Assembly (NCBI GenBank): GCA_020853775.1
Contig: JADYYH010000034.1
Span: 1 to 49,557, forward strand
Direction of reading: 5' to 3'
Source of the DNA: Nitrospira sp.
GTDB lineage: Bacteria; Nitrospirota; Nitrospiria; Nitrospirales; Nitrospiraceae
DNA: 49,557 nt
Positions 15,224-41,335 of this stretch are shown piece after piece (the stretch's first letter is position 1; the number at the start of each line of letters is the position of its first letter). The notes below the pieces were generated by a model. The model saw nothing but the letters and a program-made list of their open reading frames with translations, made no database searches and was not told the DNA's origin. The translations under genes were made by a program, and so were the position numbers.

Positions 15224-15431
15224 GCGCACTTAGCGCCGTTTGTGAAAGCCGAATCACTCTAGTTCAAAAGACCTAACGGCCTTCTCCAGCGCTGGCCCTA
15301 AATTTCCCCAAAGTGGGCCTTCTGCCGTGTTGCAGAGAAACATCGAGAAAGCATAGAGTGACTTGACCCCACGCTTTAACCGAGGGTGTCCCTTCTCCAA
15401 GTTGTTAACCCCCAAAAGAGAGCAGGTTCGA

Positions 15432-16067
15432 ATGACTCAGTATCGCGTGTTACCAGGCCCAGAGCACTTCCTGCCACCGGCAGCAGCCTCCATGGGGATC
15501 TATCTCCCCAATCCAGGCGAGGCACATATCAACGGCGTGATCGTTCCTGAAGAAAAAGCCTACGAAGAAGCGGCACGCCAGTTCCTGATGGCACAGGTAC
15601 CGACCATTTTCCCGGGCCCCTTAGTCTTGTGGGCCTGGAACGAAAAGGCCGCTAAGAAGGCCGCTGCCGTCAGAAAGCTGTACGAAATTTTGAAGGAGTG
15701 CGTTCAGCCCGGGCAGAAACCGATGCTGATTCCTATGCCGGACTATCGTCCCAAGTATCCGAAGATCAATCCCGAAGTGGAAATCAATCCCAACCACCCG
15801 AACCTGACCATCTGGCATAACAAGATTGACTGCTGCATGTTCATCGGGGTGCACTGCCACCAGGCGAATCTGTCGCTTAAGATCATCCGGGGCGGAACGT
15901 CCTGCTATACCGTCGCGATGTGCGCCCAGGCAGGACATGAAGATGCCATGCTCTCCTTTAGAGATGCCTCTGTGGAGAAAATACTCAAGCTCGGCGAATG
16001 GATCCGTAAACTCAAGGGCACGGTCAAACCGCGGCTGACCACAGCAAAGACCAGCGCGTCAAACTAA
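15432..16067 (+). CDS. Fifth (epsilon-like) subunit of five-subunit 2-oxoacid:ferredoxin oxidoreductase
   Basis: The 211-residue product heads the operon and matches in size and position the extra subunit known from the five-subunit enzymes of Hydrogenobacter and Nitrospira; I recall such proteins being annotated as carbon monoxide dehydrogenase beta-subunit-like. It is cytoplasmic. It is cysteine-rich in the second half: C134, C135, C142, C158 and C164, with TIWHNKIDCC and GVHCHQANLSLKIIRGG. Whether these bind a cluster is unknown. The ATG at 15432 is preferred to the upstream in-frame start at 15363, because AGG lies 5-6 nt before it and the extra codons look non-coding. Confidence 0.75.
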   Translation: MTQYRVLPGPEHFLPPAAASMGIYLPNPGEAHINGVIVPEEKAYEEAARQFLMAQVPTIFPGPLVLWAWNEKAAKKAAAVRKLYEILKECVQPGQKPMLIPMPDYRPKYPKINPEVEINPNHPNLTIWHNKIDCCMFIGVHCHQANLSLKIIRGGTSCYTVAMCAQAGHEDAMLSFRDASVEKILKLGEWIRKLKGTVKPRLTTAKTSASN

Positions 16068-16109
16068 GTGGCTTCAAGCACTTCTAACGATTAAAAGGAG
16101 GCCGAGTCC

Positions 16110-17321
16110 ATGGCGGAAATAAAATCCCACATCGGGACACAGAATAAAAAGGGCCAGACGTATACAGATGCGTGGGAGATGATGCACGAGGCCCCTCGCA
16201 ACCCGTCCTTTTATACCGGCAGCGAGGTTATTAAAGAAGCCTTGCGGCGTGCAAGCTGCGACGTGATGATTGCCTATCCCATCACCCCTCAAAGCGAAGC
16301 TGCTGCCCTCATCGGCGAATTATTTGCTGAAGGCTATATCGGCGACTATTTCCGAGGAGAGAGCGAGTTTGCCGTTATGTCCCAATGCGCCGGCGCTGCC
16401 TTTGGTGGCGCACGGGTGTTCACTACGACCGCAGGACCCGGCACAATGCGCGCGATGGAGAACTTTCCTATGTGGGCAGGTGCGCGTCTGCCGATTCAAA
16501 TGATCGTCACGTGTCGCGGCATCAACTCCCCGTTGTCGATTCAGCCGGATACCATTGAGATTTCCTACCTGTTAAATACAGGCATGCTGGTTTGGCATGC
16601 AGAAACGGCACAGGACTTTTTCGATTGGATCCTCAAAGGCTTCATGGTATCGGAAGAGCCGGAAGTGCATTTACCTCTGGCGCTATGCTGCGACGGCTTC
16701 TTCGTGACCCATACGAAAGACGTCGTGAACCTCACTCCAGCAGATATGTGCCTACCACCTTACGATCCCTACCGCTCACCCGTGCCTTGCATGGACATGG
16801 AGTGTCCGCCGGTCAGAATGATGCGTGACCCGTTCATTATGAAGAGCAACTACATCAGTTATGCCACCCACGCTTCATGGCAACAAGAAATTTGGGCGGC
16901 GGTTGAACGCTCGCGCAAACACACCATCAAGTGGATCAATGGCCTGATCGATACGGAAAACACCGATGCTGAGGTCGTGATTGTTGCGTCAGGCACTGCG
17001 GTCTCGCAGGGGCGAGAAGCTATTCGCCTGCTCGAAGACGAAGGCGTGCGTTGCGGACTGGTGAAGGTAAAGTCACTCCGTCCTTGGCCCGGAGAGGAAA
17101 TTCGCGAGGCCACCAAGAATGCGAAACACATTTTTGTGCCCGAGTTTAACGTGACGGGCTGGTTGGCGAAAGAAATCAAAGCCACCATCCCTAACAGCGA
17201 GCGTGTTCATGCCGGCCCGCATGTGTGTGGCGGAATGACAATGCCGCCAGAAATTATTGCCTCAGAGATCAAAGCGGCTCTAGGCTTGCGCTCCGAGTCA
17301 CTCGCTGGAAGAGGTAGCTGA
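16110..17321 (+). CDS. 2-oxoacid:ferredoxin oxidoreductase alpha subunit
   Basis: Carries the pyrimidine-binding and transketolase-C-like domains of the enzyme that interconverts a 2-oxoacid with acyl-CoA, CO2 and reduced ferredoxin. The family motif YPITPQSEAA (55-64) is present, then FTTTAGPGTMRAMENFPMWAGARLP and SPLSIQPD, and the second domain with VIVASGTAVSQGREAIRLL. At 403 residues it matches the alpha subunit of five-subunit enzymes. Pyruvate versus 2-oxoglutarate use cannot be settled from sequence alone; both occur in the reductive TCA cycle of Nitrospira. A strong AGGAGG lies before the ATG. Confidence 0.9.
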   Translation: MAEIKSHIGTQNKKGQTYTDAWEMMHEAPRNPSFYTGSEVIKEALRRASCDVMIAYPITPQSEAAALIGELFAEGYIGDYFRGESEFAVMSQCAGAAFGGARVFTTTAGPGTMRAMENFPMWAGARLPIQMIVTCRGINSPLSIQPDTIEISYLLNTGMLVWHAETAQDFFDWILKGFMVSEEPEVHLPLALCCDGFFVTHTKDVVNLTPADMCLPPYDPYRSPVPCMDMECPPVRMMRDPFIMKSNYISYATHASWQQEIWAAVERSRKHTIKWINGLIDTENTDAEVVIVASGTAVSQGREAIRLLEDEGVRCGLVKVKSLRPWPGEEIREATKNAKHIFVPEFNVTGWLAKEIKATIPNSERVHAGPHVCGGMTMPPEIIASEIKAALGLRSESLAGRGS

Positions 17322-17390
17322 TAGTAGCTGAGTTGTGACACCGTCCATTGAGCCATCATTACGTGATAGACAAGCCTTGAGGAGGCATAC

Positions 17391-18293
17391 ATGAGCAAAG
17401 AGCGAATCAAAATTTCGCCGGACCTATATGACATCATGCCGTCGGACTATCAGGACCTCGTTCAAAGCGCGACCTATGGGAAAGAGGACCGTGGCTGGAA
17501 AGATATTGGAACCTCTAAAGAACTGATTGAGCAGCACTCCTTGTGCGCCGGTTGCCCTGAATCCATGGCCTTTCGCTATATCCTGGCCTCACTCCCAAAC
17601 CCTGAGGATACGGTGATGGTCGGTTCCACAGGCTGCACCAGCCTCGTGTTTCCCATGGTGGCTGTGCACAACATTCACTCCCTCTTTGGCAATCAAAACG
17701 CCATTGCATCCGGGCTGAAGCGAGCCCTGAGCGTGAGATTCCCTGACCGCGTGAAAGACGTAGTCGTCTTGGCAGGCGATGGTGCGACGGTCGATATCGG
17801 CCTGGACATGACCCTGCAAGCCTGGTTCCGCCAGGAAAAGTTCACGACCATCTGTTTCGACAATGAACTGTACGCCAATACCGGTGGCCAGGAGAGCGGC
17901 CTGATGCAAAAAGGCTTCGTTGCCAAAATGGCCCCGGTTGGAAAACTGTTCGACAAAGTCCGTTTGCCTGAAATTGCCCGAGAGTCCGGCTGTCACTACG
18001 TCGTTAACTGCACAGTGAGCAAGCCGTCACTTGTGGAAAAGGTGATTCGGAATTCCGTCCTCATTGCACGTGAAATTGGACCTACGTATATCCAGCTGTA
18101 CACGCCGTGCATCCTTGAAATCGGCAAGAACAGCATGGAAGGCCTCCAGGAAATGCGTGACTCTGAAAAGCCAACTGAGCGATTTGCTTATAAAGAGTAT
18201 GTCAGCGAACCGGCGAAGCAGTTCCTGGCTGAACTAGCTGCTAAGGACAAGGAACGCAAAGCCGCCGCAAAACAGTTAGCGGGAAAAGCTTAA
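17391..18293 (+). CDS. 2-oxoacid:ferredoxin oxidoreductase beta subunit (TPP-binding)
   Basis: Binds thiamine diphosphate and the proximal 4Fe-4S cluster. The TPP/Mg motif is GDGATVDIGLDMTLQAW (129-145) followed by DNELYANTGGQ. The four conserved cluster cysteines of the family map to C52, C55, C82 and C240. At 300 residues it is the usual beta-subunit size; the last 30 are Lys/Ala-rich. AGGAGG lies before the ATG at 17391, 69 bp after the alpha subunit. The gamma gene follows after 17 bp. Confidence 0.93.
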   Translation: MSKERIKISPDLYDIMPSDYQDLVQSATYGKEDRGWKDIGTSKELIEQHSLCAGCPESMAFRYILASLPNPEDTVMVGSTGCTSLVFPMVAVHNIHSLFGNQNAIASGLKRALSVRFPDRVKDVVVLAGDGATVDIGLDMTLQAWFRQEKFTTICFDNELYANTGGQESGLMQKGFVAKMAPVGKLFDKVRLPEIARESGCHYVVNCTVSKPSLVEKVIRNSVLIAREIGPTYIQLYTPCILEIGKNSMEGLQEMRDSEKPTERFAYKEYVSEPAKQFLAELAAKDKERKAAAKQLAGKA

Positions 18294-18310
18294 GGAATCG
18301 GAGGTCGCTC

Positions 18311-19018
18311 ATGATCAAGAAGAGACTCAATATTCGCATGTCCGGGTTGGGTGGGCAAGGCGCCGTGACGGCAGCCCACGTAATGGCCATGGCCGCCAAC
18401 CGAGACGGAAAGTTTTCCATTTCGAATCCATTTTTTGGCGCTGAAAAACGAATGGCTCCCGCAGAAAGTTACTGTCGGATCGGGATTGAGCGGATCTATG
18501 ACCGGGGTGAGTTGGTATTTCCCGATGTGATCGAAGTATTTCATCCTCAAGTTATTACGATGGGCAAGAGCTACACCATGCCCTTCTACTCCGGTGTCAA
18601 AGAGGGGGGGGTTGTCATCATCAACTCGGCCCAGCCTCTCTTGTCAGAAGAAGATATCAATCGCCTCAAGGACCTGAACGTGGCCTTGTTCTACATTGCG
18701 GGAACCGAGCTCGCGATCGAAGTCGCCGGTACCGAGCTCTCGACGAATATGTCGATGATCGGTTCGGTCGCAGGTATTACCAAATGCGTCTCAATGGAAG
18801 CTCTCGACGGCGCCTTGCAAGAACGATTCGGCAAGAAGTTCGTGGCATCCGGTGGTACCGCCTCCTTGGACGAAGCGATCAAGAAGAAGTTCGCCAAGAA
18901 AGAAATGCTATTGGCGAAGAACCTGGCAACAGTCAAGCGAGCCTACGAAATCGCAAGCGAATGGGCTGATAAGAACAAGGTCGAGTTGCGGGTTGGCAAT
19001 CCTGCCGTTGCAGCTTAA
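18311..19018 (+). CDS. 2-oxoacid:ferredoxin oxidoreductase gamma subunit
   Basis: CoA-binding gamma domain of the complex. It starts with the family glycine motif MSGLGGQGAVTAAHVMA and has NPFFGAEKRMAPAESYCRI and the VIINSAQP strand. The 235 residues are slightly longer than the typical 190-residue gamma subunit, with a charged C-terminal helix extension (KKKFAKKEMLLAKNLATVKRAYEIASEW). Cytoplasmic. GGAGG lies before the ATG. Part of the E-A-B-G-D operon, with the ferredoxin-like subunit 23 bp downstream. Confidence 0.92.
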   Translation: MIKKRLNIRMSGLGGQGAVTAAHVMAMAANRDGKFSISNPFFGAEKRMAPAESYCRIGIERIYDRGELVFPDVIEVFHPQVITMGKSYTMPFYSGVKEGGVVIINSAQPLLSEEDINRLKDLNVALFYIAGTELAIEVAGTELSTNMSMIGSVAGITKCVSMEALDGALQERFGKKFVASGGTASLDEAIKKKFAKKEMLLAKNLATVKRAYEIASEWADKNKVELRVGNPAVAA

Positions 19019-21753: not shown

Positions 21754-24700
21754 TCATGTTCGCGTTTTGATGGGCGGGTCCGGCTTGCTGAACTGGTCTT
21801 CAAACCCCAGATGAGGCCTGGCCAAAAATGCTCCCGCGAGTTTTCGACCATCATCATAGACCGGCTGGGCCGCCTGCCATTCCGCCATGGGCGGGTTTAC
21901 GGGAAGGCTCACCATAAATTTGGTGCCGTGCCCTACGTCACTGAACACTTCCACGTAGCCGCCGTGCTCCTGGACAATTTGGTGGGCAATGGTCAAACCA
22001 AGACCCGTGCCCTCACGTTCGCCGCTCTCGTGCTTCGTGGTATAAAACGGATCAAAAATATGATCCAGATCGTGCGGTTCGATTCCCGGCCCACTATCCT
22101 CCACCTCGATCTGCACCCACGGCTCATTCACAGATTTGACGAGTTTTCGTGTACGGACGGAGAGGCGGCCCCCCTGTTCGTTGCCGATGGCTTCCATCGC
22201 GTTGATAAATAAATTCAGCAGCACCTGTTTGATTTGCTGACGATCCAGCTTGACGTAGGGCAAATCGGGCGCGAGTTCCTTTTGAATGGTGATCGCTTTG
22301 CTGCTCGCCTTCACCTCGATAAAATACAAACAAGAGGACACGACATCGTTCAAGCTCTCCTGTGTCAATTTCGGGGTCATATACCGCGCGTAATCCAGAA
22401 TCTCGTGGACCAACCGTTCAATCCGCTCCACATCCTCACAGACCACCTGACTAAACTGCTCCATGAATTCCACATCATCCCGCCGGTCGGGAGCCAGTTG
22501 AACGAATGTTTTAATGGAGGTCAGCGGATTCCGGATCTCGTGAGCAAATCCTCCGGCCATGGTTTCCAGCGACCGGAGCCGGTCGGTGCGGCGCATCAAC
22601 AACTGAGACCGCCGCAAATCTTCGTACAGCAGGGCGTTATCGATGGCGATCGCCGCATGCTGCGCCAGCGTTTTGAGCAGCGCCAGTTCTTCCGTCGAAT
22701 ACATCCCATGATTTGCACGGCGTCCTAAATTGCAAAAGCCGACAAGCCGTTCCTTGCTGATCAAGGGAATGCACACTTCCGATTCCAAGCTATTCAGCGT
22801 ATCCAGCAGTCGCAGATAGTCGAGATCCGCCTTGTCATATTCGATCTCCTCCCGGACGAGAGCGGTTTCCGTTCGCAATAAAGCTCGCGGGAATTCGCTT
22901 TCCATCTTGATGGGAGGCACGATGACATCTCTCGTCACAAACCCATAGGACGCCGTCAAACTGTACACCCCCTGCTCTTTATCGAGGACATACACTGACG
23001 CGGTTTTGATGTTCATCACACGGGCCAGGGTTTGGACAATTTCCTTCGTGAGTGATTTCAGCTCGAGGATTGCCACCAGGGACTTCGAGAACTGCACCAG
23101 TGTGTCATACGCATCATAGCGCTCACGAAAGAGGGTCTGCCCGATCGCACGCTCGACGCCTTTTTGCAGATTGGCCAACCCACTCGACACAATGACAAAG
23201 AGCCCGAAGAGCACTCCGGCCAGCAGATAGTGGAAGGTGCCGGTGAAAATTCGAATGACCAGCAGAATCATCATGTAGGCCGGAATCAGCCCCGCCAGCT
23301 TGATCGATAACATGACCTTCGGCCTGCTCGGCGCGAAGGAAATATCCATCAATTCATATCGTGCGATGGCATAGGCGACGACCGTGACGGACAGTCCTGC
23401 CAGCAGATAGCCGACCGGATAAAATCCGATGCCGTAATTCTGCAAGAAGTCGAGGGAGGCCGAGAAGCCAAGTACCAACGCTGCGAAGGTATATTTTAAT
23501 TGGGCGCCTAACAGAGGAGCGGAGGACTGATGCAATCGATACCCCTGATAGAGCCGATACACGGTCAGACCGCCGCCCCCCACCATATAGGCGACCAACC
23601 ATGGGTGGAGCACTCCCGCCTTCGGGTACCGGCCCCAGTAATAGAGGTACTGTCCATCCACCACATAGGGCGTGAATAAGAGACTCCAGAATAGGCCGCC
23701 TATGGCGTAGTGCCACAAAATCACCCGATCTGGCGCGGCCCCTCCCGCAAGCCGGTGCGCAAAGTGGTAGGTCAAGGCGGGCAAAAAGACGACGCCGGTG
23801 TAAATCACTCGCACCCAGAACAGGGCTTCCTCGTCATGGGGAGCAGAGAACAGCATGAAGCAGCCGAACAGCCAGAGGCACGCGGCACCGCAGACGGCGC
23901 TAAACACCGTATTAGAGGAGGAGCGCGGATTATTGCTCAGCACCCACAAGGCACAGATCAAAAACAGAGTTCCGGCCAATAAGGGAGGAGTGGAATGCCC
24001 GGTCGCCCGATTGCTAAGAACGGCGCCGATAGACGTCGCCACCACGATAATCGCCAGCACGATGGCATATCCCAGGCCCTTGTTCAGGACGACGCTGATA
24101 TTCATCAGGCGATACCGCACGATCGTATACGCCATCAAGGCGGTATACACCGTGATCAGCACCGTGCCGTAGGGCAGAAGCGGCACACCGTACCAGAGCG
24201 GGAAATTCGTCGCCCCGCCTGTATAGCCAATGACGCTGGCCACCAGCATGTAGGCATATTGATGGCGCCGGATTCCATTGGCATCGCGAAGCGCGACCCC
24301 CACAAGCGAGGTGGCGTAGATCACATACCAGAGAAAGTAGGCGAGAAACGGATGAAAAAATGGGCCGGGAATCGGCCAGAAGGAGAACGACATGGCCGGA
24401 TGCACGCCCGCCACAAACCAGGGCGTCGTATCCGCGAGCAGGAACAGTCCGGCGAGTCCATAGCCGATCTTGAGCGCCTTGGCATGACGCGCCGCAATAT
24501 CGAGAAACGTGACCGTGTGGTGAAAATACAGGATGGGGATGAGCGACGCGCCGGCCATGACCAGACGCAACAGGCTCAGCGCGAGGTCCCTCGACTCCGC
24601 AAGCTGCCACCCGCAGTAAAACACGCTCCAGAACGCGATGCTCAGACAATACAGCCCGTAGATCCGGTTGCGCGCGGCGGCAGGATCCCGGAAATAGACG

Positions 24701-24762
24701 AACATTCCGAGCCCTGTCGCAGCCAACGCATTGACCAGCGCGCTGAGTGCGAGCACTTTCAT
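21754..24762 (-). CDS. Membrane histidine kinase with doubled multi-helix sensor and GAF domain
   Basis: A 1002-residue sensor kinase. Residues about 1-225 form one seven-helix membrane module and about 230-475 a second, each ending in a similar pair of helices followed by ARYELMDIS or VRYRLMNIS, so the sensor looks duplicated. Two more membrane helices lie around 483-530. A GAF domain covers about 555-715, then HisKA with the phospho-acceptor H741 (GGFAHEIRNPLTSIKTF), then the HATPase with N854, DSGPGIEP (889-896) and GTGLGL (918-923). All catalytic boxes are intact. No response regulator is adjacent. The gene starts 33 bp after the PilZ fusion stop and should share its transcript. The layout recalls PrsK-like kinases but with an extra sensor module. 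Confidence 0.9.
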   Translation of the reverse strand: MKVLALSALVNALAATGLGMFVYFRDPAAARNRIYGLYCLSIAFWSVFYCGWQLAESRDLALSLLRLVMAGASLIPILYFHHTVTFLDIAARHAKALKIGYGLAGLFLLADTTPWFVAGVHPAMSFSFWPIPGPFFHPFLAYFLWYVIYATSLVGVALRDANGIRRHQYAYMLVASVIGYTGGATNFPLWYGVPLLPYGTVLITVYTALMAYTIVRYRLMNISVVLNKGLGYAIVLAIIVVATSIGAVLSNRATGHSTPPLLAGTLFLICALWVLSNNPRSSSNTVFSAVCGAACLWLFGCFMLFSAPHDEEALFWVRVIYTGVVFLPALTYHFAHRLAGGAAPDRVILWHYAIGGLFWSLLFTPYVVDGQYLYYWGRYPKAGVLHPWLVAYMVGGGGLTVYRLYQGYRLHQSSAPLLGAQLKYTFAALVLGFSASLDFLQNYGIGFYPVGYLLAGLSVTVVAYAIARYELMDISFAPSRPKVMLSIKLAGLIPAYMMILLVIRIFTGTFHYLLAGVLFGLFVIVSSGLANLQKGVERAIGQTLFRERYDAYDTLVQFSKSLVAILELKSLTKEIVQTLARVMNIKTASVYVLDKEQGVYSLTASYGFVTRDVIVPPIKMESEFPRALLRTETALVREEIEYDKADLDYLRLLDTLNSLESEVCIPLISKERLVGFCNLGRRANHGMYSTEELALLKTLAQHAAIAIDNALLYEDLRRSQLLMRRTDRLRSLETMAGGFAHEIRNPLTSIKTFVQLAPDRRDDVEFMEQFSQVVCEDVERIERLVHEILDYARYMTPKLTQESLNDVVSSCLYFIEVKASSKAITIQKELAPDLPYVKLDRQQIKQVLLNLFINAMEAIGNEQGGRLSVRTRKLVKSVNEPWVQIEVEDSGPGIEPHDLDHIFDPFYTTKHESGEREGTGLGLTIAHQIVQEHGGYVEVFSDVGHGTKFMVSLPVNPPMAEWQAAQPVYDDGRKLAGAFLARPHLGFEDQFSKPDPPIKTRT

Positions 24763-24795: not shown

Positions 24796-27528
24796 TCATG
24801 CGGCAACCGTGACGTGCGCCAGGCCCTTCTCGGCCACGGCGATCAGCGCTTGATTTCCGAACGTGGAATAAATCCGCGGGCGAGAGACTCCCGCCGCTCG
24901 CAGCAGACTTTCTAATTCCGTCTGATAGTGGAAATGAAACGTGCCTTCGCCTTCGCGTTCCTTGATTCTACCAGAATTGTCCAGCAGGCGACGGCCTTCC
25001 TCGACCTGATCCCTCGTCTGAGCGGTATCCACGAAATTCCGATAAATGGCCGAGAGATCCGCATAGGGTTTCAAATTCGAAATGACCAACCGCCCCTGCG
25101 GCGTCAGCACGCGCAGATATTCGCGCAAGGTAAACAGCGGGTCGCGCACATACCCCAACACCAGGTTGCACACGACGCGATCGAAGGAATGATCGGGAAA
25201 CGGCAGCGCAGATTCCAGATCGGCCTGGCACACGCGCATCGACATGGGCTCATAGGTGCGCAGCCCTTCGTAGAATTGCCCCTGCAGCGTCGCGCCGACC
25301 TGCTCGAAATTGCTCATGGCCTGCGCCAAGGCGGCCGGCACGAAGTCGAGACCGACATAGTCGGGTGAGCGAAAGTCCCCCCGCTTGCCGTATCGCTGCC
25401 GAAAGGCTTGATTCAGCTGCAGGAAGACACCGAAATTTCCGTTCCCGCACCCGGCGTCCAGAATCCGTTCGCCCTGGTGGCAATTGCCCATCAATCGATA
25501 GAGATGATCCATAAGGCGCCAGAAATCGGCCACATTGGGAATCGTTTGAAAGTTCTGCAAATACTCCTGCCAGAAGGCCACGTGATCCGATTTTCCCATC
25601 GGTCGCCGCTGCTTGCTCCGTTCGCGCTCAAGCCGGTTCTGCGCGCCGATTTCACGGTGGGACGGTTCGACCAGCCGTTCCTGACGCCGCGCCGTCCAGA
25701 GTTCCTGTTGGCAACAGGCGGCAATTTGCCGATACACCGCGCGGGACTTCCGTGGGCTTTCTTGCAAGCGATGTAAGGCGCCCGGCACGACGAAGGAGTG
25801 GCGCAGATACGGCCCGATCGCCTCCGTCACACGCTCAATGGAGGCTGGATCAACCCACGCGTCCTGCTCAGCATGAAACAGCACGACCGGAGTCCGTACA
25901 CGCGCGGCATCGCACTGCGTCGTCAGAAGATCGGCATAGTTCCCCTCCACCGCATGCGCCAACCATCGATCGGCATCGATGGTGAGCCCCATGATATTCA
26001 CCACGCCTTTGTGCACACCCGCCAGATGCTCTCCAATCAAATCCTCTTGATGCACGGCCTGCAGCGTATGCCGGACATCCATGATCCCGTTGATGACCGT
26101 CAAGAGGCGTACATGGGGCACCTTGCCGGCCACCTTTAATGCGACACGTCCCGCCAGACTTGTGGCCACAAGGCCGATCGGTCGACCCGGCCATTGATGG
26201 GCGACATGGTCCAACACGGTTTCGAGATCCGCCTCCATGTCCTCCAGGCGGAATTGAGTCACCAAGCCGTCACTTTCACCGACATGGTTCACATTGTCGT
26301 AGCGGACCACGTGGAACCCGTTACCCGCCAGGTAGTAGGCCAGGGGCACATAATCGCGCTTGCTCTCCCCATATCCGGGCGCCAAGACGACAATCGGGGC
26401 ATCAGCCCCCTGCTCAACTCGCGGCCGGTCATGGCAGATCACGATCCGAAGGCCGGAAGGTCGGCGACATTCAGAAAACTCACTGAGCACGGCGGGACTT
26501 CCGGCCGTCGATTCGAGGCTCGGCTGCTGTATCTGTCCCAGCAGATGATCGATGATATCTTCCGCTTCCTTGGCCACCGGAAGAAACCGCACTCCGGCCA
26601 GCACGGAACGCCCAGCCACGGGCACACAGCCGGGTCGGGCGTCAGGTGCAGCCGGTCTGATCCACACGACTTGCCCCACCACCGAACAGGCCGTGGCCGG
26701 CAGTGGGGTGCTCACAGATTCCTGGAAAGCGGCCGACTGCAACCATCGTAATTCGAGTTCCGATCCCAAGAGATCCTCTTCCGCAGATAGCTGAACACAG
26801 GCGCCGTTGGGGGACAGGTCCGTCGTGACGCCGGCGGACAATGGTCGGCCACCCGTATGCGTCCGGAGACTCACTTCGGTGCTCAATCCAACCACGACCC
26901 GCTGCTGGCGCCGTCGCTCTTCCCGCGGACGCTCTGGCCGTCGCACCAACTGCATGGGAACCGGCGGCGCGGGAGCGGGCTGTGGAGAACCCGTATCGAT
27001 GAGGGACTCTTCCCCTTCCTGCACGACCAAGGCGGCTGCCAGGCGCATCTGTCTTGGTGCGGTCGCACCTTGACTGAGGAGTGATGCCACGACCCGTTCG
27101 TCTGCGGCACTTAGGCGGACGAATTGGATGGCCAGGGTCACCGCGGTGTGCGTACGACCGGACACGTGCAGATCCTCAGACGAGCGAATGCCGCACACGA
27201 TGCCGAGGCTGTCCAATCTGCCCTCATCCGGGTTGAAGCTCAACATCATCTGTTGATTCAGCATGGCAGGAATGTCGAACACAAAGTCCATCGACAGCCC
27301 CCCGAGACTGAGGCTCTTGGTGACCCCTTTCCAGGTTTGCCCCTGAAAGAACAACTGAGTAGAGAGGCGAAGCGCAAGACGACGAGACGCGCGTCGTTCG
27401 GCAAGAGACAGTGACCAGGCGTCCTTCGTTTTCTTTCTATCGGCCACCGGAACGTTCAGGCTATCCTCATGCCCGCAGAGAGCAGGTAACGGCTGACTCA
27501 CATTACGCGCAGTGCTATCAGACGACAT
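24796..27528 (-). CDS. PilZ-PilZ-LuxD-like hydrolase-methyltransferase fusion protein
   Basis: A 910-residue four-part protein, no signal or membrane helix. PilZ 1 (about 43-150): RRASRR at 45-50, but SLSLGG where DxSxxG is expected. PilZ 2 (about 198-330): RRRQQR at 205-210 and a full DLSPNG at 238-242, so it should bind c-di-GMP. Hydrolase (about 358-605) resembles LuxD, the acyl-ACP thioesterase of bacterial luminescence: RYDNVNHVGESDG aligns with the LuxD segment, and the presumed triad is S457 (ATSLAGR), D556 (EQDAWV), H586 (GALHRL). Methyltransferase (about 645-905): SAM motif ILDAGCGNGNFG at 689-700, then LPFPDHSFDRVVCNLVLGYV. ATG 27528 has GGGAGG before it. The kinase gene follows after 33 bp. 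Domain calls are firm; the LuxD relation is from remembered sequence. Confidence 0.88.
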   Translation of the reverse strand: MSSDSTARNVSQPLPALCGHEDSLNVPVADRKKTKDAWSLSLAERRASRRLALRLSTQLFFQGQTWKGVTKSLSLGGLSMDFVFDIPAMLNQQMMLSFNPDEGRLDSLGIVCGIRSSEDLHVSGRTHTAVTLAIQFVRLSAADERVVASLLSQGATAPRQMRLAAALVVQEGEESLIDTGSPQPAPAPPVPMQLVRRPERPREERRRQQRVVVGLSTEVSLRTHTGGRPLSAGVTTDLSPNGACVQLSAEEDLLGSELELRWLQSAAFQESVSTPLPATACSVVGQVVWIRPAAPDARPGCVPVAGRSVLAGVRFLPVAKEAEDIIDHLLGQIQQPSLESTAGSPAVLSEFSECRRPSGLRIVICHDRPRVEQGADAPIVVLAPGYGESKRDYVPLAYYLAGNGFHVVRYDNVNHVGESDGLVTQFRLEDMEADLETVLDHVAHQWPGRPIGLVATSLAGRVALKVAGKVPHVRLLTVINGIMDVRHTLQAVHQEDLIGEHLAGVHKGVVNIMGLTIDADRWLAHAVEGNYADLLTTQCDAARVRTPVVLFHAEQDAWVDPASIERVTEAIGPYLRHSFVVPGALHRLQESPRKSRAVYRQIAACCQQELWTARRQERLVEPSHREIGAQNRLERERSKQRRPMGKSDHVAFWQEYLQNFQTIPNVADFWRLMDHLYRLMGNCHQGERILDAGCGNGNFGVFLQLNQAFRQRYGKRGDFRSPDYVGLDFVPAALAQAMSNFEQVGATLQGQFYEGLRTYEPMSMRVCQADLESALPFPDHSFDRVVCNLVLGYVRDPLFTLREYLRVLTPQGRLVISNLKPYADLSAIYRNFVDTAQTRDQVEEGRRLLDNSGRIKEREGEGTFHFHYQTELESLLRAAGVSRPRIYSTFGNQALIAVAEKGLAHVTVAA

Positions 27529-29525: not shown

Positions 29526-31016
29526 CTATCGTCCGCTGAGATGACTCCGCACATCCTGCACATAGGTCTTGAAGGGGTCCGCCATAAAAAACGGCTCGGC
29601 GTCACGTAACTTAAAATTGGACCAGTTGATGATGTACTCGCAGGACAGATGATCACCATAATTGTGCGCGGCCTCCGCTTCGGCTCCGGTCGGGGGCGAC
29701 GCGAGCAGATGCCGGACCAATTCACCCCGGCCGAAGGCCCGCGTGTTGCGAGGCGGATGGTCCTGCGCTAATTGAACGCTCTTGTCCGTCGTCAGGCGAG
29801 GCCCTCGCCCTTCCTCTTCAAGGCCGTAGCAGAGTCCCCGGTCGGGATGGAGGTTGTGGTATTCCAGATCGAGACTCTTCAGCATGGGATCATCCCAGGT
29901 CAGCTGCTCCGCTCCACGGTAGGTTTCCAGCAGCCAGAGTTTCGAAGCCCAATCGATCCGCCCCACGAGTGTTTCATACCCCTGCCGCAGGTCGCTCAGC
30001 ACCGATTCCCATTGTTCCAGTACCCAATCCGTCTCTTCGTCCTGTCCCTTGCAGTGGCGCTGCGCGGCAGCGAGAAACTGCTCTTGAATATCGATGGCGG
30101 ACATCGACTGCCCGGAGTCCAGGCGGACGATCCATTGGCGATCCGGGTCTCGCGAGATCTCCTGCAAGGCCTCGACCGGCTCGCTGATTCCCAATCCACG
30201 GGGAGCCTGCCCGGCTTCGATGAGCTGCAAAACCAATCCTGTCGTGCCCATCTTCAGTGCCGTGGCATACTCGGCCATATTCGAATCGCCGCAGAGGAGA
30301 TGGATGCGGCGGTATTGATTGGGATCCGCCAGCGGTTCATCGCGTGTATTGACGATCGCCCGGTTGTGCTGCACCCACTCGAAGAAATCGTTCACGATAT
30401 AATCGGCCCGCTGCGAGATCTGAAACGGAACAATCGATCGATCCTGCGCATCCCGCAGCCCGGGGCGATGCAAGATGAGCCCGCCGATTTGCACCCATTC
30501 ATTAGGATCACCGGCACAACCGATCCTGCCCGCGCCGGTAAACACCTGGCGGGTGACCAAAAAGGTCACCAGGGGGCCAAGACCACGCCGGGAAAACGGG
30601 AACTGACGGGTGACGAGGTAGTTTTCGTGCGAACCGAACGTGGCGTCGGTTTCGTGATCGATATTGTTCTTGATGAGCGAGACCGTATCTTCCAGCCCCA
30701 GCGCCGTCACGGCCTGCTGAATGATCCGGTCTCCGGCGCGATCGGATGCGACGAGATCCGCCAGCGTCGTGCATTCCGGCGAGGCATATTCCAGATGGCC
30801 CATGTCGATGTAGATCCGCCCGGCATTCGTCAAAAACCCCCCGTTGCCGGGCGGCTCATCATGTCCACGGTGGTGAAGATCGAGGACACCGCGGCGAGCG
30901 GCATGAAAAATGTGATCCCGGATACGCTGCGCCACCCAGGACGGCGAATGGTCAGGCCGATCCTGGTTGACCAGGAGGCCATATTCCGTTTCGATTCCAA
31001 AAATACGATTCAGCAT
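29526..31016 (-). CDS. pafA: UBact/Pup ligase PafA
   Basis: Carboxylate-amine ligase of the glutamine-synthetase-like superfamily that joins the C-terminal glutamate of the modifier to lysines on target proteins. Seen: the start FGIETEYG with Glu9, the catalytic aspartate region RIYIDMGHLEYASPEC (D71), KNNIDH, HENYLVTRQ, ISQRADYI and NTRDEP. The C-terminal domain ends INWSNFKLRDAEPFFMADPFKTYV, matching the PafA ending (VDW..LKL..DPF), and the Dop-specific loop is absent, so this is the ligase rather than the deconjugase. 496 residues. Last gene of the proteasome run, 60 bp after prcA. Confidence 0.92.
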   Translation of the reverse strand: MLNRIFGIETEYGLLVNQDRPDHSPSWVAQRIRDHIFHAARRGVLDLHHRGHDEPPGNGGFLTNAGRIYIDMGHLEYASPECTTLADLVASDRAGDRIIQQAVTALGLEDTVSLIKNNIDHETDATFGSHENYLVTRQFPFSRRGLGPLVTFLVTRQVFTGAGRIGCAGDPNEWVQIGGLILHRPGLRDAQDRSIVPFQISQRADYIVNDFFEWVQHNRAIVNTRDEPLADPNQYRRIHLLCGDSNMAEYATALKMGTTGLVLQLIEAGQAPRGLGISEPVEALQEISRDPDRQWIVRLDSGQSMSAIDIQEQFLAAAQRHCKGQDEETDWVLEQWESVLSDLRQGYETLVGRIDWASKLWLLETYRGAEQLTWDDPMLKSLDLEYHNLHPDRGLCYGLEEEGRGPRLTTDKSVQLAQDHPPRNTRAFGRGELVRHLLASPPTGAEAEAAHNYGDHLSCEYIINWSNFKLRDAEPFFMADPFKTYVQDVRSHLSGR

Positions 31017-31076
31017 GTCAGCACACTATTGATACGGGGCTCCAGGGCCTGCTCGATACCAGGCCGATTTGTTCCG

Positions 31077-31928
31077 TCATACGTCGATAGCACATCGGTG
31101 AGAATCTGAGGCCCGAACGGCCGGAGGCAGCAAGCGGCCTAATTCATCCGCACGCAAGGCCCGGTATTTAGACGAACCAGGACCATTGCGTTCCAGCAGC
31201 ACACATTCCAGCGACTTTTCCGCCACGGTCTGCCGCACATGGGCCAGCAAAGCCGTTGTGTCCGGCAAGGCCTCAGCTGCTGCCTTTTCTCCGGACTCGC
31301 GCACGGACGATAACTCACCCTCTGGATTTCCGGATGACGTTTGCGCCAGAGATCCCACCGCCCACGCGCAGAGGCCGGTTTCTACGGCCTGCGCCAATGG
31401 AGCCTGAGCAAATCCTGGCTGTGCGTCGATATACCGACCCATTTCGATTTGCACGGCGGACGTCGCACCCAATGCTGCCCAGCCGCGCCGCTCTTCAAAA
31501 TTTCCATCATAGTTGATAGTCAGAAACAGGTCTCGTTCCGGCTTCACGCCCAATTCGGCCAGCAGAATTTTGGCGATGAAAGGCGCTTTGTAAATTTCTT
31601 CAAAGGCCTGTTTGATGGTCGGCGCTAACCCGTATTTCATCAGTCGCGCGCCCGTCACATCGGACGGCGATCGATTAAACCCTTCGACATGGGCCATTTC
31701 CAAGAGCGAGAAGCGCAATTTCTCCAGATCGGCCGGATGCCCCATCCCGCCGAGCGCAATGCGATCATAAATCTCATAGAGTTTGGGCGTCCCACGGCTC
31801 ACGGTCAGCATCACAATGCCGCCGGCATAGGCCAACGCCACCACCGGCGAGCCCATCGTAAACTGTTCATCGAGATACTGGCGTCGATTGCCGACCGCCT
31901 CGATCCACCGATAGGGTTCTTCATACAT
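31077..31928 (-). CDS. prcA: 20S proteasome alpha subunit PrcA
   Basis: Forms the outer rings of the proteasome core that gate substrate entry. The 283-residue protein starts MYEEPYRWIEAVGNRRQYLDEQF and has MGSPVVALAYAGGIVMLTVSRGTPKLYEIYDRIALGGMGHPADLEKLR, the alpha-type pattern (the position of the catalytic Thr is not used). The C-terminal 80 residues after about 195 are Ser/Glu/Ala-rich with a final VRASDSHR segment, longer than in actinobacteria. Start ATG 31928 has GGTGACG before it. Located between prcB (67 bp upstream) and pafA (60 bp downstream). Confidence 0.92.
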   Translation of the reverse strand: MYEEPYRWIEAVGNRRQYLDEQFTMGSPVVALAYAGGIVMLTVSRGTPKLYEIYDRIALGGMGHPADLEKLRFSLLEMAHVEGFNRSPSDVTGARLMKYGLAPTIKQAFEEIYKAPFIAKILLAELGVKPERDLFLTINYDGNFEERRGWAALGATSAVQIEMGRYIDAQPGFAQAPLAQAVETGLCAWAVGSLAQTSSGNPEGELSSVRESGEKAAAEALPDTTALLAHVRQTVAEKSLECVLLERNGPGSSKYRALRADELGRLLPPAVRASDSHRCAIDV

Positions 31929-31995
31929 ATCGCGTCACCTTCATCCTGATCATAGAGCCCGTGAGTTCGCGAGCCTTCACGCGACCATCTGTCGG

Positions 31996-32769
31996 CTAGA
32001 GCGCGCGGACGACGTCACGCTCGTACAATTGTTTCAAATTGGTATCTGGAATGGTCTGCACGCCTGCTGCGGTAATGAGTTTCACGACCGGGTAGAGATT
32101 CAGCTCACGATTCACGCCGCCCGTCGCCGAGTCGAACTCCGCCGCGCTGGAGAGTAATCGCAGGGCTTGCACGGTAGCCTGCTCTTCAGGCAAGGCTGCC
32201 AGCGGTTGAGGGCCCCAGGTATTCACATAATGAAGAATGCCCCGGATCGTGGGCGAGCCGGAACCGGACACGGCATACTCCACCGCTTCGAACTCGGCCC
32301 CCAGAATGTCGTAGAAATAGATCTTCGCCGCCTCTTGCTCATGGTCATACCCGGCAAAGACCGGCACCACCGCTCCCGTTCCGGCTAACGCCGCCGGCAC
32401 GTTTTCCTTGAGCAACTTGGACACCGCGCGAAGTTTGCCCTCAAAACTCAGCTCCTGCAGCTGCGTGCGGCGATAGTACTTGAATGAATGTTCCAGCACG
32501 CGCACCATCTCGTAGGCCGTGGCCGGCACACCGGCAATCGCCAGGACACTGTGGCGATCGATCTCCAGCACCTTGTCGGTACGGTCGTACATCACCATGT
32601 TGCCGGCCGTCGCCCGGCGATCCCCCGCGACCAACACTCCGTCCCGATACTTCAGCGCGAGAATCGTCGTGGCGTTCGGGATTTCCATTCCCGCCGAGGC
32701 TGCCACAGGATTGCCGAACTGATACCCCTGCGATTTCAACAGTTGAAAGAAGTCTCCTTGCATCCCCAT
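31996..32769 (-). CDS. prcB: 20S proteasome beta subunit PrcB (catalytic)
   Basis: Forms the inner rings and carries the N-terminal nucleophile threonine freed by autocleavage. The mature start is TTILALKYRDGVLVAGDRRATAGN, with D and K of the catalytic set (GDRR, TDKV) present. The residue before the nucleophile is Ala (IPNA-TTI) where actinobacterial proteins have Gly. The chosen ATG at 32769 gives 257 residues with a 33-residue propeptide; ATGs at 32763, 32817 and 32826 and a TTG at 32856 are in frame and none has a clear ribosome site, so the propeptide length is open. Downstream of UBact, upstream of prcA. Confidence 0.92.
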   Translation of the reverse strand: MGMQGDFFQLLKSQGYQFGNPVAASAGMEIPNATTILALKYRDGVLVAGDRRATAGNMVMYDRTDKVLEIDRHSVLAIAGVPATAYEMVRVLEHSFKYYRRTQLQELSFEGKLRAVSKLLKENVPAALAGTGAVVPVFAGYDHEQEAAKIYFYDILGAEFEAVEYAVSGSGSPTIRGILHYVNTWGPQPLAALPEEQATVQALRLLSSAAEFDSATGGVNRELNLYPVVKLITAAGVQTIPDTNLKQLYERDVVRAL

Positions 32770-32872
32770 ATCATCTTCACCCACGTTTTGAATTCTCAGT
32801 TTTTCGTGTGGTCTCATCGCACCCATGCTGAGCCACGCAACGCTCAGCACTGACAACTCACCATTCTCTAGA

Positions 32873-33070
32873 CTATTCTCCCGTGCGCTGCCGATACCGC
32901 TCCGCCTGCTTGGGATCGACCTTTCGCATCCGCTTCAGCAGATTATCCTTGTCCGGCGAACCGGTATCCGGCCGCCGGGGACCGCCGCCTTCTTCCGATG
33001 GGCCCGACGGTTTCGGCATCGGATCGCCCGGGGCTTCACGACGTTCCGGCATGTTTATATATGGCATCAT
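32873..33070 (-). CDS. ubact: Ubiquitin-like protein modifier UBact (Pup homologue)
   Basis: A 65-residue, highly polar, probably disordered protein that serves as the degradation tag. It is rich in Pro, Gly, Glu, Arg and Lys, and has a charged helix-like C-terminal half (DNLLKRMRKVDPKQAERYRQ) ending in RTGE. The C-terminal residue is already Glu, so no deamidation would be needed before ligation; the penultimate Gly is kept while the third-last is Thr rather than the Gly of Pup. Sequence and locus fit UBact, the Pup-like protein described for Nitrospira and relatives. ATG 33070 has AGGA 6 nt before it. It sits between dop and prcB. Confidence 0.9.
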   Translation of the reverse strand: MMPYINMPERREAPGDPMPKPSGPSEEGGGPRRPDTGSPDKDNLLKRMRKVDPKQAERYRQRTGE

Positions 33071-33090
33071 TCTGCATCCTTTCGTCTAGC

Positions 33091-33209
33091 AGGATGCTGA
33101 AAACGTCCGCCAGCGGCGTTCTCACCTCGTTCAGATCCTCAACGTACCCAGAGGGTACGCCTCGGCCCCTCACTCGGTTCGGCCTTGCTGGACAGCCATT
33201 GAGCATCCT
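33091..33209. repeat. Structured intergenic repeat, copy A
   Basis: 119 bp bounded by a perfect inverted repeat AGGATGCT (33091-33098) / AGCATCCT (33202-33209). Internal hairpin CGTACCC / GGGTACG at 33143-33149 and 33153-33159. It is clearly homologous to the element at 36717-36838 in the opposite orientation, sharing GTCCGCCAGCGGCGTTCTC and CGGCCTTGCTGGAC. It lies between dop and ubact and would be transcribed with them. Confidence 0.85.
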
Positions 33210-33244
33210 GTCACGCTCTTCGTTGTCGTCCAATGCGCTGATGG

Positions 33245-34771
33245 CTACGAGTAGTCTCGCAACTTGCCTGCCCATGCAGCCAGCGCATCGGCAGGAGACG
33301 CTGCGGTTTCGAACAGGCCGGCACAGGCCTGCACGGCTTCCGGGTCGAACAGATCGCCCATCTCCAGCGTACGGCTGCGCAACCCGCCCGCGAACTGCAC
33401 CCGCTCCCATTGCATCCCCGTGATCTGTTCAGGAAACCGCCTGACACACAGTCCGCGCAATCCTCCGCGGGTATCGGAGGGACCCGCCGCGAGCGCCTGT
33501 GCAATGTCACGCTCGGTCGTCATGCGCCACGTCTTTCCTTCGGCTTCGAGGCCGAGAAACAATCCGCGATCGGGGTTCAGATTATGGTATTCCAAATCCA
33601 GGCTGGCGAGCCAGGGATCCTCCCATGCGAGCTGTTCCTCGCGCATGAAGGTTTCTAACAACCAGTGTTTCGTGACCCAATCCAGCTTGCCGACCAGTTG
33701 TGCACGATCCCCCTCGAGCAGCCGCAGGGTGTCATGCCATTCCCGCAGGACCCAATCCGCGTCCGGATCGCTCCCGCTACAGGCCCGGTTGGCCGCATTC
33801 CAGTACTCCGCCTGAATGGCCAAGCCGGTCATCGTCCGGCCATCCTTCAACCGCACGGTCGCCTTGAGATCGAGATCGCGAGATAGTTGCTTGATAGCGG
33901 CCACCGGCTGCTCCAACGCTATCTGCGGAGCCACGCCCCGCTGCAGCATATCCAGCACCAACCTCGTCGTCCCGACCTTGAGCGCAGTGGCGTACTCGCA
34001 GAAGTTGGCGTCTCCCACAATTAAATGCAGCCGCCGATACTTCGCCCGGTCGGCATGGGGTTCGTCGCGCGTATTGAGAATGGGGCGATTGTGCATCGTG
34101 TCCACACCCAGCTCCGCTTCCATAAAATCGGCCCGTTGCGAAAGTTGGAAGGGGCCTGGCACAAAGCCGGATTCCTGGGCTTCCATGCCCACCTTCCCTG
34201 CGCCGGCGAACAATTGGCGGCTGACCAGGAACGGCAAGAGTCCCTGCACTAATTGTGGAAAGGGTAGTGAGCGCGAGACGAGGTAGTTGTCGTGGCAGCC
34301 GTAGCTGTGGCCATGAAAGTCGGTATTGTTTTTGTAGAGTTGTACATGCGCACCGCCCAGCCGCTGATTGCGGCGATCCGCCGCTCGCTGCACAATACGC
34401 TCCCCGGCCCGGTCATGCGCCAGGAGATCCTTGAGCGTTCGACATTCGGGAGTCGAGTATTCCGGGTGCGTGTGGTCGTTGTAAAACCGCGCGCCGTTCG
34501 GCAGGACCAAATCGCTCTTCATCTCATGGAACGAATAGGGACGATGGGCATCCACCTTGGCGAAGTCGTCTTCCTCCTTGTCCTGCTGCAGACCGGAGAC
34601 GCGGAAGCCGCGCGCATCCTCGTGCGGATCTTCGCCCCGGTAATCCCACCGCCGCTCGAAATCACCGGACAGATGGGCGCGCACCAACTCCATCGATTCC
34701 TCGACCGGATCGACCGCATCGAGATCCTCCCTGGTGATGCCGTATTCTGTTTCAATCCCGAAGAGATGCAT
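33245..34771 (-). CDS. dop: Depupylase/deamidase Dop (UBact deconjugase)
   Basis: Paralogue of PafA that cleaves the modifier-lysine isopeptide bond (and in actinobacteria also deamidates Pup). Seen: FGIETEYG at 4-11, then the Dop-specific insertion around 40-88 with RWDYRGEDPHEDARGFRVSG, matching the Dop loop of actinobacterial proteins; the catalytic aspartate D99 in RFYNDHTHPEYSTPEC; YKNNTDFHG, HDNYLVSRS and LSQRADFMEAELG. 508 residues. With UBact ending in Glu the deamidase role is likely redundant, leaving deconjugation. ARC lies 36 bp upstream; a repeat and ubact follow. Confidence 0.92.
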   Translation of the reverse strand: MHLFGIETEYGITREDLDAVDPVEESMELVRAHLSGDFERRWDYRGEDPHEDARGFRVSGLQQDKEEDDFAKVDAHRPYSFHEMKSDLVLPNGARFYNDHTHPEYSTPECRTLKDLLAHDRAGERIVQRAADRRNQRLGGAHVQLYKNNTDFHGHSYGCHDNYLVSRSLPFPQLVQGLLPFLVSRQLFAGAGKVGMEAQESGFVPGPFQLSQRADFMEAELGVDTMHNRPILNTRDEPHADRAKYRRLHLIVGDANFCEYATALKVGTTRLVLDMLQRGVAPQIALEQPVAAIKQLSRDLDLKATVRLKDGRTMTGLAIQAEYWNAANRACSGSDPDADWVLREWHDTLRLLEGDRAQLVGKLDWVTKHWLLETFMREEQLAWEDPWLASLDLEYHNLNPDRGLFLGLEAEGKTWRMTTERDIAQALAAGPSDTRGGLRGLCVRRFPEQITGMQWERVQFAGGLRSRTLEMGDLFDPEAVQACAGLFETAASPADALAAWAGKLRDYS

Positions 34772-34807
34772 AACGTGATGCGTGGGGTGCCCCTTCTCGT
34801 TCCAGCC

Positions 34808-36559
34808 TCAGATAATCTGGTTCACCAACTGCTCCTCCGTCGGCCTACCGCGACGGAACGACGACACGCCCACCACCTGCTCAGGATGATGGTCCAACAA
34901 CTTCAACCATTCTTCCGCCGCATCGTCGGGAGGTAACATCTCGCCTTCCCGATATTCCTCCTGCACGGCATCGAGCAGATCTTGCGCACGAACGCCGTCG
35001 CCGGCCGCGGCGCCGGTTTGCGCCACCGCCCGCTCGATTGCCTTTTCCTTTGCCCGCTGGACGATGGCAGACAGAATGGCCCCGCTGACAAGATCCCCGC
35101 GATACAGCACCTTGTTCTGCCCGTTTCGCAAGCGGATGGACAGGACACGATTCTGGTCGGTCCGCGAAAAGAGACTCTCGACCACCTGCTCGATGACCGC
35201 GCGGCGCGCCGCGTCGTGCGATTGACGATGTTGCTCGAGCAACGCGGGATCGAGCGGGAGTGTGGCGGTCAGATACACGGACAAAATTTCCACGGCGGCC
35301 TCTCGCGTCGGGCGCGCCACTTTGATCTTCCGATCGATCCGGCCCGGCCGCAGCACCGCGGGATCGATCAAATCCGGCCGGTTAGAAGCCAGAATAATCA
35401 CCACATCCTGCAACGACTCGATCCCGTCCATTTCCGCGCAGAACATCGGCACCAACGTATTGTTGATGTTGAACGACCGCATCGATCGTCTGGTGCCTAA
35501 CACCGACTCCGCTTCATCGATGAAAATAAACGGCAGTGCCCCTTCTTTGCGTCTCGTACGCGCTTTGGCAAAGAGGTCACGCACGATCCGCTCGGACTCG
35601 CCCAGCCACATATTCAGAATTTCCGGGCCCTTGATATGGAGGAACGCTCCGCTCGTCACCGGAGGATTTTTCCTGTGGCCCTCTGGAGAGGCCTGCTCCT
35701 GAGACGCTCGTACCAATTGCGATAAACTCGCCGCTGCCGCCTGGCCGATCATCGTCTTGCCGCATCCGGGAGGACCGTACAGCAGAAACCCCTTCGGCTG
35801 CGTAAATTGATATTTCGTGAAGGTGTCGGCATGGAGCAGGGGATATTCGATCGCCTTGCGGATGGCCTCGATGGCCTGATGCTGCCCACCGATCTGTTGC
35901 CAGGTGACATTCGGCACTTCATCCAACAGGTGGGTGCGTGCCTGACGATTCTCAAACTTTTCGATGGCAATCCGGTGGGTGGGTTCAATGCGGACTTCAT
36001 CACCGGCTTTGAGGTCCACGCCCAGCAAATCACTGGACCGTTGAAGAATCAACGCCTGCCGGCCCATATCCTGTTCAAACCGGATACGCCCATCCGGCAA
36101 CACCTCCGCAACCTTCAGCACCGGCCCATTGCGGTCATACTCCAGGGCCTTGATCACCGTATACGCCTCGTTGACCAGAATCTGAGCCCCGATCTTGAGC
36201 TCCTCTGCCGTCAGTCGTGGGTCGATATTGGCGTAATACTCTGCCCCGCCGACCACGATACGGGCTACGCCTTCCGCCGGCACCTCCACGAGCAGGCCCA
36301 CACGGTTGGCCGGTGCCGTGAGCTTCGCGACGACCTCATTGAGCTTTTTCAGTTCCGTATCGCGCCGGTCCTGGACGACCGACTGCGCCGTCACGACATG
36401 GCGCAATTTATAGAGCAGCTTCTGCCGAGGGTCGCCGTCGGGAAAGGCGGCCAGGCATTCATCTATCAATTCAATCGGATCGGCAGGCGTCGAAGCGTCG
36501 CGCGACGGCGACTGAGGTGCCCCAGGGCCAGGCTGATCCGTATTCCGATGGTCACTCAT
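34808..36559 (-). CDS. arc: Proteasome-associated AAA+ ATPase ARC/Mpa
   Basis: Hexameric unfoldase that threads tagged proteins into the proteasome. 583 residues: a helical N-terminal segment for modifier binding (about 28-85), tandem OB-fold region (about 86-205), then one AAA+ module with Walker A GPPGCGKT (262-269), Walker B FIFIDE (344-349) and the PGRID arginine region. The C-terminus is EEQLVNQII; the GQYL-type ending (hydrophobic-Tyr-X) that docks actinobacterial Mpa into the alpha rings is missing. GCCGGAGG precedes the ATG. First gene of the proteasome run. Confidence 0.92.
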   Translation of the reverse strand: MSDHRNTDQPGPGAPQSPSRDASTPADPIELIDECLAAFPDGDPRQKLLYKLRHVVTAQSVVQDRRDTELKKLNEVVAKLTAPANRVGLLVEVPAEGVARIVVGGAEYYANIDPRLTAEELKIGAQILVNEAYTVIKALEYDRNGPVLKVAEVLPDGRIRFEQDMGRQALILQRSSDLLGVDLKAGDEVRIEPTHRIAIEKFENRQARTHLLDEVPNVTWQQIGGQHQAIEAIRKAIEYPLLHADTFTKYQFTQPKGFLLYGPPGCGKTMIGQAAAASLSQLVRASQEQASPEGHRKNPPVTSGAFLHIKGPEILNMWLGESERIVRDLFAKARTRRKEGALPFIFIDEAESVLGTRRSMRSFNINNTLVPMFCAEMDGIESLQDVVIILASNRPDLIDPAVLRPGRIDRKIKVARPTREAAVEILSVYLTATLPLDPALLEQHRQSHDAARRAVIEQVVESLFSRTDQNRVLSIRLRNGQNKVLYRGDLVSGAILSAIVQRAKEKAIERAVAQTGAAAGDGVRAQDLLDAVQEEYREGEMLPPDDAAEEWLKLLDHHPEQVVGVSSFRRGRPTEEQLVNQII

Positions 36560-41173: not shown

Positions 41174-41335
41174 ATCGTGATGCTGAGTTGTCCGGCTTGC
41201 GTCGCGGGTTGATTTCATCCGGCGACCCGCTTCCACCCAGTCATGGACAGGGTTCCCCGCGAGATCCCATGGAAATTTCTGGTCATCTATGTGTATATAG
41301 TCGGATACCTTTTACGTGGAGCCCTGCCAGCGCCT

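Follow-up and report, generated by a model that had tools for sequence, protein, structure and literature searches.

On the reverse strand of the analysed stretch (contig JADYYH010000034.1 of Nitrospira sp., 49,557 nucleotides, hereafter the window), positions 24796-27528 encode a single frame of 910 amino acids that opens with an ATG and has the ribosome-binding site GGGAGG just upstream. Consistent with an initial annotation made from the sequence letters, Pfam recovers four domains within this frame, and the protein is proposed here to be a signal synthase. Two PilZ stretches (Pfam, 7.6e-18) were placed at residues 44-151 (27076-27399) and approximately residues 204-332 (26533-26919), followed by an Acyl_transf_2/LuxD domain, a LuxD-like α/β hydrolase, at residues 368-603 (25720-26427; 6.3e-24). 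The C-terminal domain, a class I SAM-dependent methyltransferase with the motif I sequence LDAGCGNG, spans residues 648-901 (24826-25587), with the Pfam match covering residues 684-825 (1.4e-15).

The next gene on the same strand starts 33 bp past the synthase stop codon and encodes a 1002-aa membrane histidine kinase, the proposed receptor (21754-24762). Two HisKA_7TM domains (24097-24735 and 23341-23982) each pass the PF16927 cut-off (45.6 and 43.5 versus 28.6 bits) and precede a GAF domain (residues 567-708; 22639-23064) and a HisKA and HATPase_c catalytic core (residues 733-956; 21895-22566). Ten hydrophobic segments were counted by a simple hydropathy scan, and a sequence search of the 7TM sensor against the PDB returned no match. 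This kinase is the only protein in the genome with a PF16927 domain, and no response regulator lies beside it within the window. Neither the strand nor the adjoining kinase had featured in the initial annotation.

Elsewhere in the window, a bacterial Pup-proteasome locus occupies 29526-36559 on the reverse strand, consisting of two Pup-ligase-family genes (29526-31016 and 33245-34771), a proteasome subunit (31996-32856), a second, divergent proteasome subunit that falls under the Pfam cut-off (31077-31928) and an Mpa/ARC-type AAA ATPase (34808-36559). The synthase-kinase pair is close to this locus in most Nitrospira genomes examined. On the forward strand, 2-oxoacid:ferredoxin oxidoreductase genes adjoin a CO dehydrogenase/ACS epsilon family gene (15363-19018), and a gene at 42721-45429, located after that of a TPR protein (41243-42679), joins a CHASE2 sensor to a sigma-54 activator domain.

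The fusion is kept in 26 of 29 Nitrospira genomes, which excludes a chance fusion, a frameshift or an assembly join. The gene is full-length in 22 of these, including the genome of the window itself, shortened in two, split by a stop codon in one metagenome-assembled genome (MAG) and located at a contig edge in another genome. Full-length orthologues within the genus share 65-92% identity, and a division of the fusion into separate genes in all relatives was not observed. Interrupted orthologues, one with an in-frame TAG (L021, genome G009) and one cut in two by a TAA (L026/L031, genome G019), represent either MAG error or recent decay.

Assignment of the hydrolase and methyltransferase domains

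The LuxD-type assignment of the hydrolase was borne out by sequence, profile and predicted fold. The LuxD-type segment RYDNVNHVGESDG occupies residues 409-421, and the catalytic triad was confirmed as S457/D556/H586, which is aligned and conserved in all intact homologues. The domain passes the PF02273 gathering cut-off (85.2 versus 20.3 bits), and profile searching places it within the LuxD family rather than an unrelated hydrolase family. The best PDB match was Vibrio harveyi LuxD, a myristoyl-ACP thioesterase (1THT), both by sequence (3.2e-17) and by profile, where it aligned along the full length (9e-37). An AlphaFold model of the hydrolase and methyltransferase (pLDDT 89.8, pTM 0.86) also ranked 1THT first in Foldseek and in VIA-align, the latter with a Z score of 31.4 over 275 residues at 3.1 Å compared to 28.6 for the runner-up.

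What is shared with LuxD is the α/β-hydrolase family, the triad and the RYD..HVG.S.G segment, at approximately 20% identity. LuxD is the best NCBIfam match at 81.2 bits, far under the equivalog cut-off of 420 bits (NF052253). Whereas the partner of LuxD is the LuxC/LuxE fatty-acid reductase, the domain described here is fused to a methyltransferase and partnered by a kinase. No match to LuxC (PF05893) was found in this genome, with weak partial matches only in congeners, and a LuxD orthologue with a lux operon was excluded on the basis of this absence and the sub-cut-off LuxD score. PF02273 domains are present in two proteins of the genome, the 910-aa protein and its paralogue. Given the family and the triad, the LuxD-like domain would use Ser-His-Asp acyl-enzyme chemistry to take an acyl chain off acyl-ACP; LuxD homology, together with the fatty-acid-synthesis neighbours found in Omnitrophota and described below, supports acyl-ACP as the probable substrate.

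The methyltransferase modelled alone adopts a confident fold (pLDDT 90.6), which many unrelated class I methyltransferases, whether O-, N- or C-methylating, match about equally (Z ~19-21). Because these matches are generic, the methyl acceptor is not readable from the fold. The product released by the hydrolase would be methylated by the methyltransferase, most economically to a fatty-acid methyl ester or some other O-methylated acyl compound; the methyl ester itself is predicted only tentatively.

Variable N termini and distribution of the core

Only the second PilZ domain of the window protein carries the full motif pair, as initially annotated, with RRQQR and DLSPNG conforming to RxxxR and (D/N)xSxxG. 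The first domain couples RxxxR to KSLSLGG, with a serine in place of the D/N. Among 21 Nitrospira copies examined, the D/N of the first domain was missing from all 21, and the second domain was degenerate in two congeners (G020 and G021). The N-terminal domains vary: two PilZ domains are present in the window gene, three in L062, and REC or PAS with PilZ in others. The N terminus of one Omnitrophota protein is an SRPBCC/START-like lipid-binding domain and the Verrucomicrobiota proteins have none. This variability makes the hydrolase-methyltransferase the conserved unit and PilZ an add-on, and PilZ was excluded as a defining feature since Omnitrophota, Verrucomicrobiota, L074 and some of family f2 have the core without it.

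The initial proposal that c-di-GMP controls the enzyme is the weaker part of that interpretation. It is weakened by the position of PilZ outside the core, the missing D/N of the first domain in the Nitrospira copies examined and the degenerate second domain of the two congeners. Several relatives that adjoin REC-HD-GYP genes possess canonical motifs in both PilZ domains, making c-di-GMP control plausible. Judged from sequence motifs, such control is plausible but lineage-specific, a Nitrospirota add-on, and for the enzyme in Nitrospira it is given a little less than an even chance.

In a sample of the phylum, 69 of 296 genomes matched at 1e-20, a count that represents an orthologue or the paralogue. 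A pattern-plus-tblastn search of 84,980 species located the core also in Omnitrophota and Verrucomicrobiota (Opitutia, Puniceicoccaceae) and in single MAGs labelled Nitrospinota and Deltaproteobacteria. The core is rare in Verrucomicrobiota, being present in 5 of 195 sampled genomes. The copy from the MAG labelled Nitrospinota (L102) falls inside the Nitrospirota family f2 in the tree, reflecting either horizontal transfer, mislabelling or contamination. A plasmid collection gave partial matches only, one of which, from an E. coli record, is a LuxD-like acyl transferase, with the remainder aligning over the methyltransferase part. In a group of distant homologues (L077-L079) the Ser and Asp align, the His is misplaced by the automatic alignment and the kinase has no 7TM match; these were excluded from the argument.

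Linkage to the 7TM kinase and the degenerate paralogue

At most loci of Nitrospirota, Omnitrophota and Verrucomicrobiota with enough contig, the gene that follows encodes a 7TM kinase, often with an overlap of 1-4 bp, and the pairing extends to other phyla. In Omnitrophota and Verrucomicrobiota the enzyme and kinase genes usually either overlap or are separated by no more than a few bases. In one MAG (M_DeepCast, G307) the enzyme and kinase form a single 1641-aa frame (L064:8383-13308) with the order PilZ-PilZ-hydrolase-MTase-7TM-GAF-HisKA-HATPase. Linkage, rarity and fusion combined are the strongest evidence that the enzyme and kinase serve one pathway, which is regarded as highly probable. 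The occurrence of 7TM kinases in genomes that lack the hydrolase-methyltransferase counts against a synthase and receptor relationship.

The genes surrounding the pair include regulators and, in Omnitrophota, lipid genes. In many Nitrospiraceae the kinase gene precedes those of an NtrC regulator and a REC-HD-GYP protein resembling RpfG; 22 of 85 loci have a REC-HD-GYP gene no more than five genes downstream, compared to nine HD_5 matches in the whole genome, and none lies beside the window gene. In Puniceicoccaceae and the distant L077-L079 group, REC-HK proteins are found in place of NtrC and REC-HD-GYP. One Omnitrophota locus (L132) has the order hydrolase-MTase, 7TM-HK, REC, FabG, two FabF-like genes, an ACP-like frame recognised by eye from its DSMK site, and a FabA/FabZ-like gene. 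A second (L135) has the order acyl-ACP-reductase-like gene, hydrolase-MTase, 7TM-HK, REC, KS, KS, ACP and FabZ, and in a third (L129) REC-HD-GYP, an SDR/FabG-like gene and FabF follow two 7TM kinases. The gene directly before the module in L135 (6328-7899) combines an SRPBCC/START-like domain with the acyl-ACP-reductase-like domain, which scores 140 bits against TIGR04058, below the cut-off.

A paralogue is present in all 29 Nitrospira genomes, mostly as a protein of ~1400 aa in which PAS and PilZ domains accompany a degenerate hydrolase. The nucleophile Ser is replaced by Asp, and the partner kinase is a soluble GAF-HK of 425-450 aa, in every ~1400-aa copy examined; the Asp and His positions are eroded and the SAM motif is often degraded. 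Beside the paralogous kinase of Nitrospira lie an NtrC-type regulator and REC-HD-GYP, and the copies at L032:6744-10949 (G000 contig 80) and L171-L187 combine these two regulators with the Ser to Asp replacement and the soluble GAF-HK. The core of the window kinase is 45% identical to the soluble kinase of the paralogue and may therefore share its regulator.

Loss of the catalytic Ser is coupled to the type of kinase. A 7TM kinase, and never a soluble one, accompanies each of the 83 intact-triad records for which the neighbouring kinase was identified, some genomes being counted twice. Ser losses, usually to Asp, form a single clade in the tree (98/95), within which most partner kinases have no membrane sensor. 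One or a few events are thus implied, and the 83:0 split does not stand for numerous independent losses. Exceptions to the coupled loss are L110, with Ser to Asn and a diverged 7TM kinase, and L081, where a methyltransferase without a recognisable hydrolase adjoins a 7TM kinase. L110 and L108, the latter with Ser to Asp, the Asp and His kept and a soluble kinase, look like intermediates within the Ser-loss clade. That the membrane sensor is mostly lost once catalysis is lost is predicted by a product-receptor pair, although it does not prove one.

A candidate lipid-signal module and alternative explanations

The earlier suggestion of a lipid or fatty-acid signal was strengthened by the 7TM kinase found in several phyla, the fatty-acid-synthesis operon of Omnitrophota and the loss of Ser, mostly together with the sensor. 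We moderately favour a two-gene lipid-signal module in which a fatty-acid-derived signal synthase is paired with a 7TM kinase receptor. The methylated product would partition into the membrane, where the 7TM domains of the next-encoded histidine kinase would sense it, and the kinase would in turn act through a sigma-54 (NtrC-type) response regulator, a REC-HD-GYP response regulator, or both. Sensing of the enzyme's product by the kinase is considered reasonably likely. In Nitrospirota, binding of c-di-GMP by the N-terminal PilZ domains would probably let it adjust signal production. Neither an exporter nor a secreted-signal gene was recognised among the operons examined, and diffusion from cell to cell is for this reason assumed.

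The missing exporter, together with a FadL-type porin that adjoins the module in L128, would also suit a role in membrane-lipid homeostasis, where the enzyme modifies or recycles acyl chains in one cell and the 7TM kinase senses the state of the membrane; LuxD homology and the fatty-acid-synthesis neighbours point to lipid chemistry in this case as well. Such a role is judged unlikely, as a dedicated unit of enzyme and 7TM kinase, once fused and with REC-HD-GYP or REC-HK partners, is closer to known synthase and receptor systems, and its rarity among the sampled Verrucomicrobiota genomes is unlike a housekeeping function. The hydrolase-methyltransferase could alternatively be a cytoplasmic ligand-binding sensory module that works with the kinase, catalysis being secondary. 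The triad-less paralogue clade remains linked to kinase, NtrC and HD-GYP genes, and almost all of its members have Asp at the nucleophile position, a strictness that suggests a retained non-catalytic role in the paralogue; the PilZ, PAS and REC domains found at the N terminus are, moreover, of a kind typical for signalling proteins. For the enzyme of the window this is improbable, since the triad and the SAM motif of the methyltransferase are strictly kept in its clade and all distant clades, showing selection for catalysis in these clades. A c-di-GMP-regulated enzyme for a non-signalling lipid or wall metabolite, its expression merely controlled by the kinase, would be consistent with the N-terminal PilZ domains and with the two-component regulators common in biosynthetic operons, but is very improbable given that the kinase is a near-constant partner, fused once, and that no other biosynthetic gene is conserved across phyla beside the pair except the Omnitrophota fatty-acid-synthesis genes.

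The favoured arrangement of synthase and receptor is comparable to two described systems. In the phcBSRQ fatty-acid-methyl-ester quorum sensing system of Ralstonia, PhcB is described as a methyltransferase only (PMC8578825). As with PhcB and PhcS, a SAM methyltransferase gene is followed directly by a sensor histidine kinase gene, and acyl chemistry would be involved; REC or REC-HK proteins are encoded nearby, the REC-HK layout described for PhcR being found in L138, L155, L156 and L078. The module differs from PhcB/PhcS in the fusion of a thioesterase-type domain to the methyltransferase and in the HisKA_7TM sensor of the kinase. The Rpf/DSF system (RpfF-RpfC-RpfG) consists of an acyl-ACP-derived signal, a membrane kinase and a REC-HD-GYP regulator with c-di-GMP output (PMC13220807). 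The module resembles it in the putative acyl-ACP-derived signal and the membrane kinase; REC-HD-GYP genes occur in some of its loci and beside the paralogue, and not beside the window gene. RpfF has an enoyl-CoA-hydratase (crotonase) fold, whereas the enzyme described here is a LuxD-type hydrolase joined to a methyltransferase, with an NtrC-type regulator usually also present in Nitrospiraceae. By analogy of layout, and with no membership of either system claimed, the module most likely works like PhcB/PhcS and RpfF/RpfC, with parts that may be unrelated to theirs.

Lipid signalling by a synthase and a kinase is already known; the architecture of this synthase, its pairing with the receptor and its phyletic spread were not found in the literature searched. 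A link between LuxD, methyltransferase and PilZ was likewise absent from that literature, outside of which lie most subscription papers. The window kinase belongs with the HisKA_7TM kinases, for which a constant enzyme partner is not known to have been described and for which the titles and abstracts searched gave no ligand assignment. We give close to an even chance to an undescribed class of fatty-acid-derived cell-cell signalling, composed of a bifunctional LuxD-type acyl-ACP thioesterase/methyltransferase synthase and a 7TM histidine kinase receptor in Nitrospira, Verrucomicrobiota and Omnitrophota, linked in Nitrospirota to c-di-GMP by way of PilZ and HD-GYP, with a degenerate paralogue that keeps the signalling context in spite of its lost catalysis. 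If true, this would allow a class of ligand to be suggested for some 7TM histidine kinases and would make a testable signalling system available in the poorly cultured Omnitrophota and Opitutia. The degenerate paralogue is a natural experiment in what stays once the chemistry is lost. Nitrospira, central to nitrification, would possess a lipid signal independent of acyl-homoserine lactones, whose coupling to c-di-GMP would probably tie it to biofilm formation.
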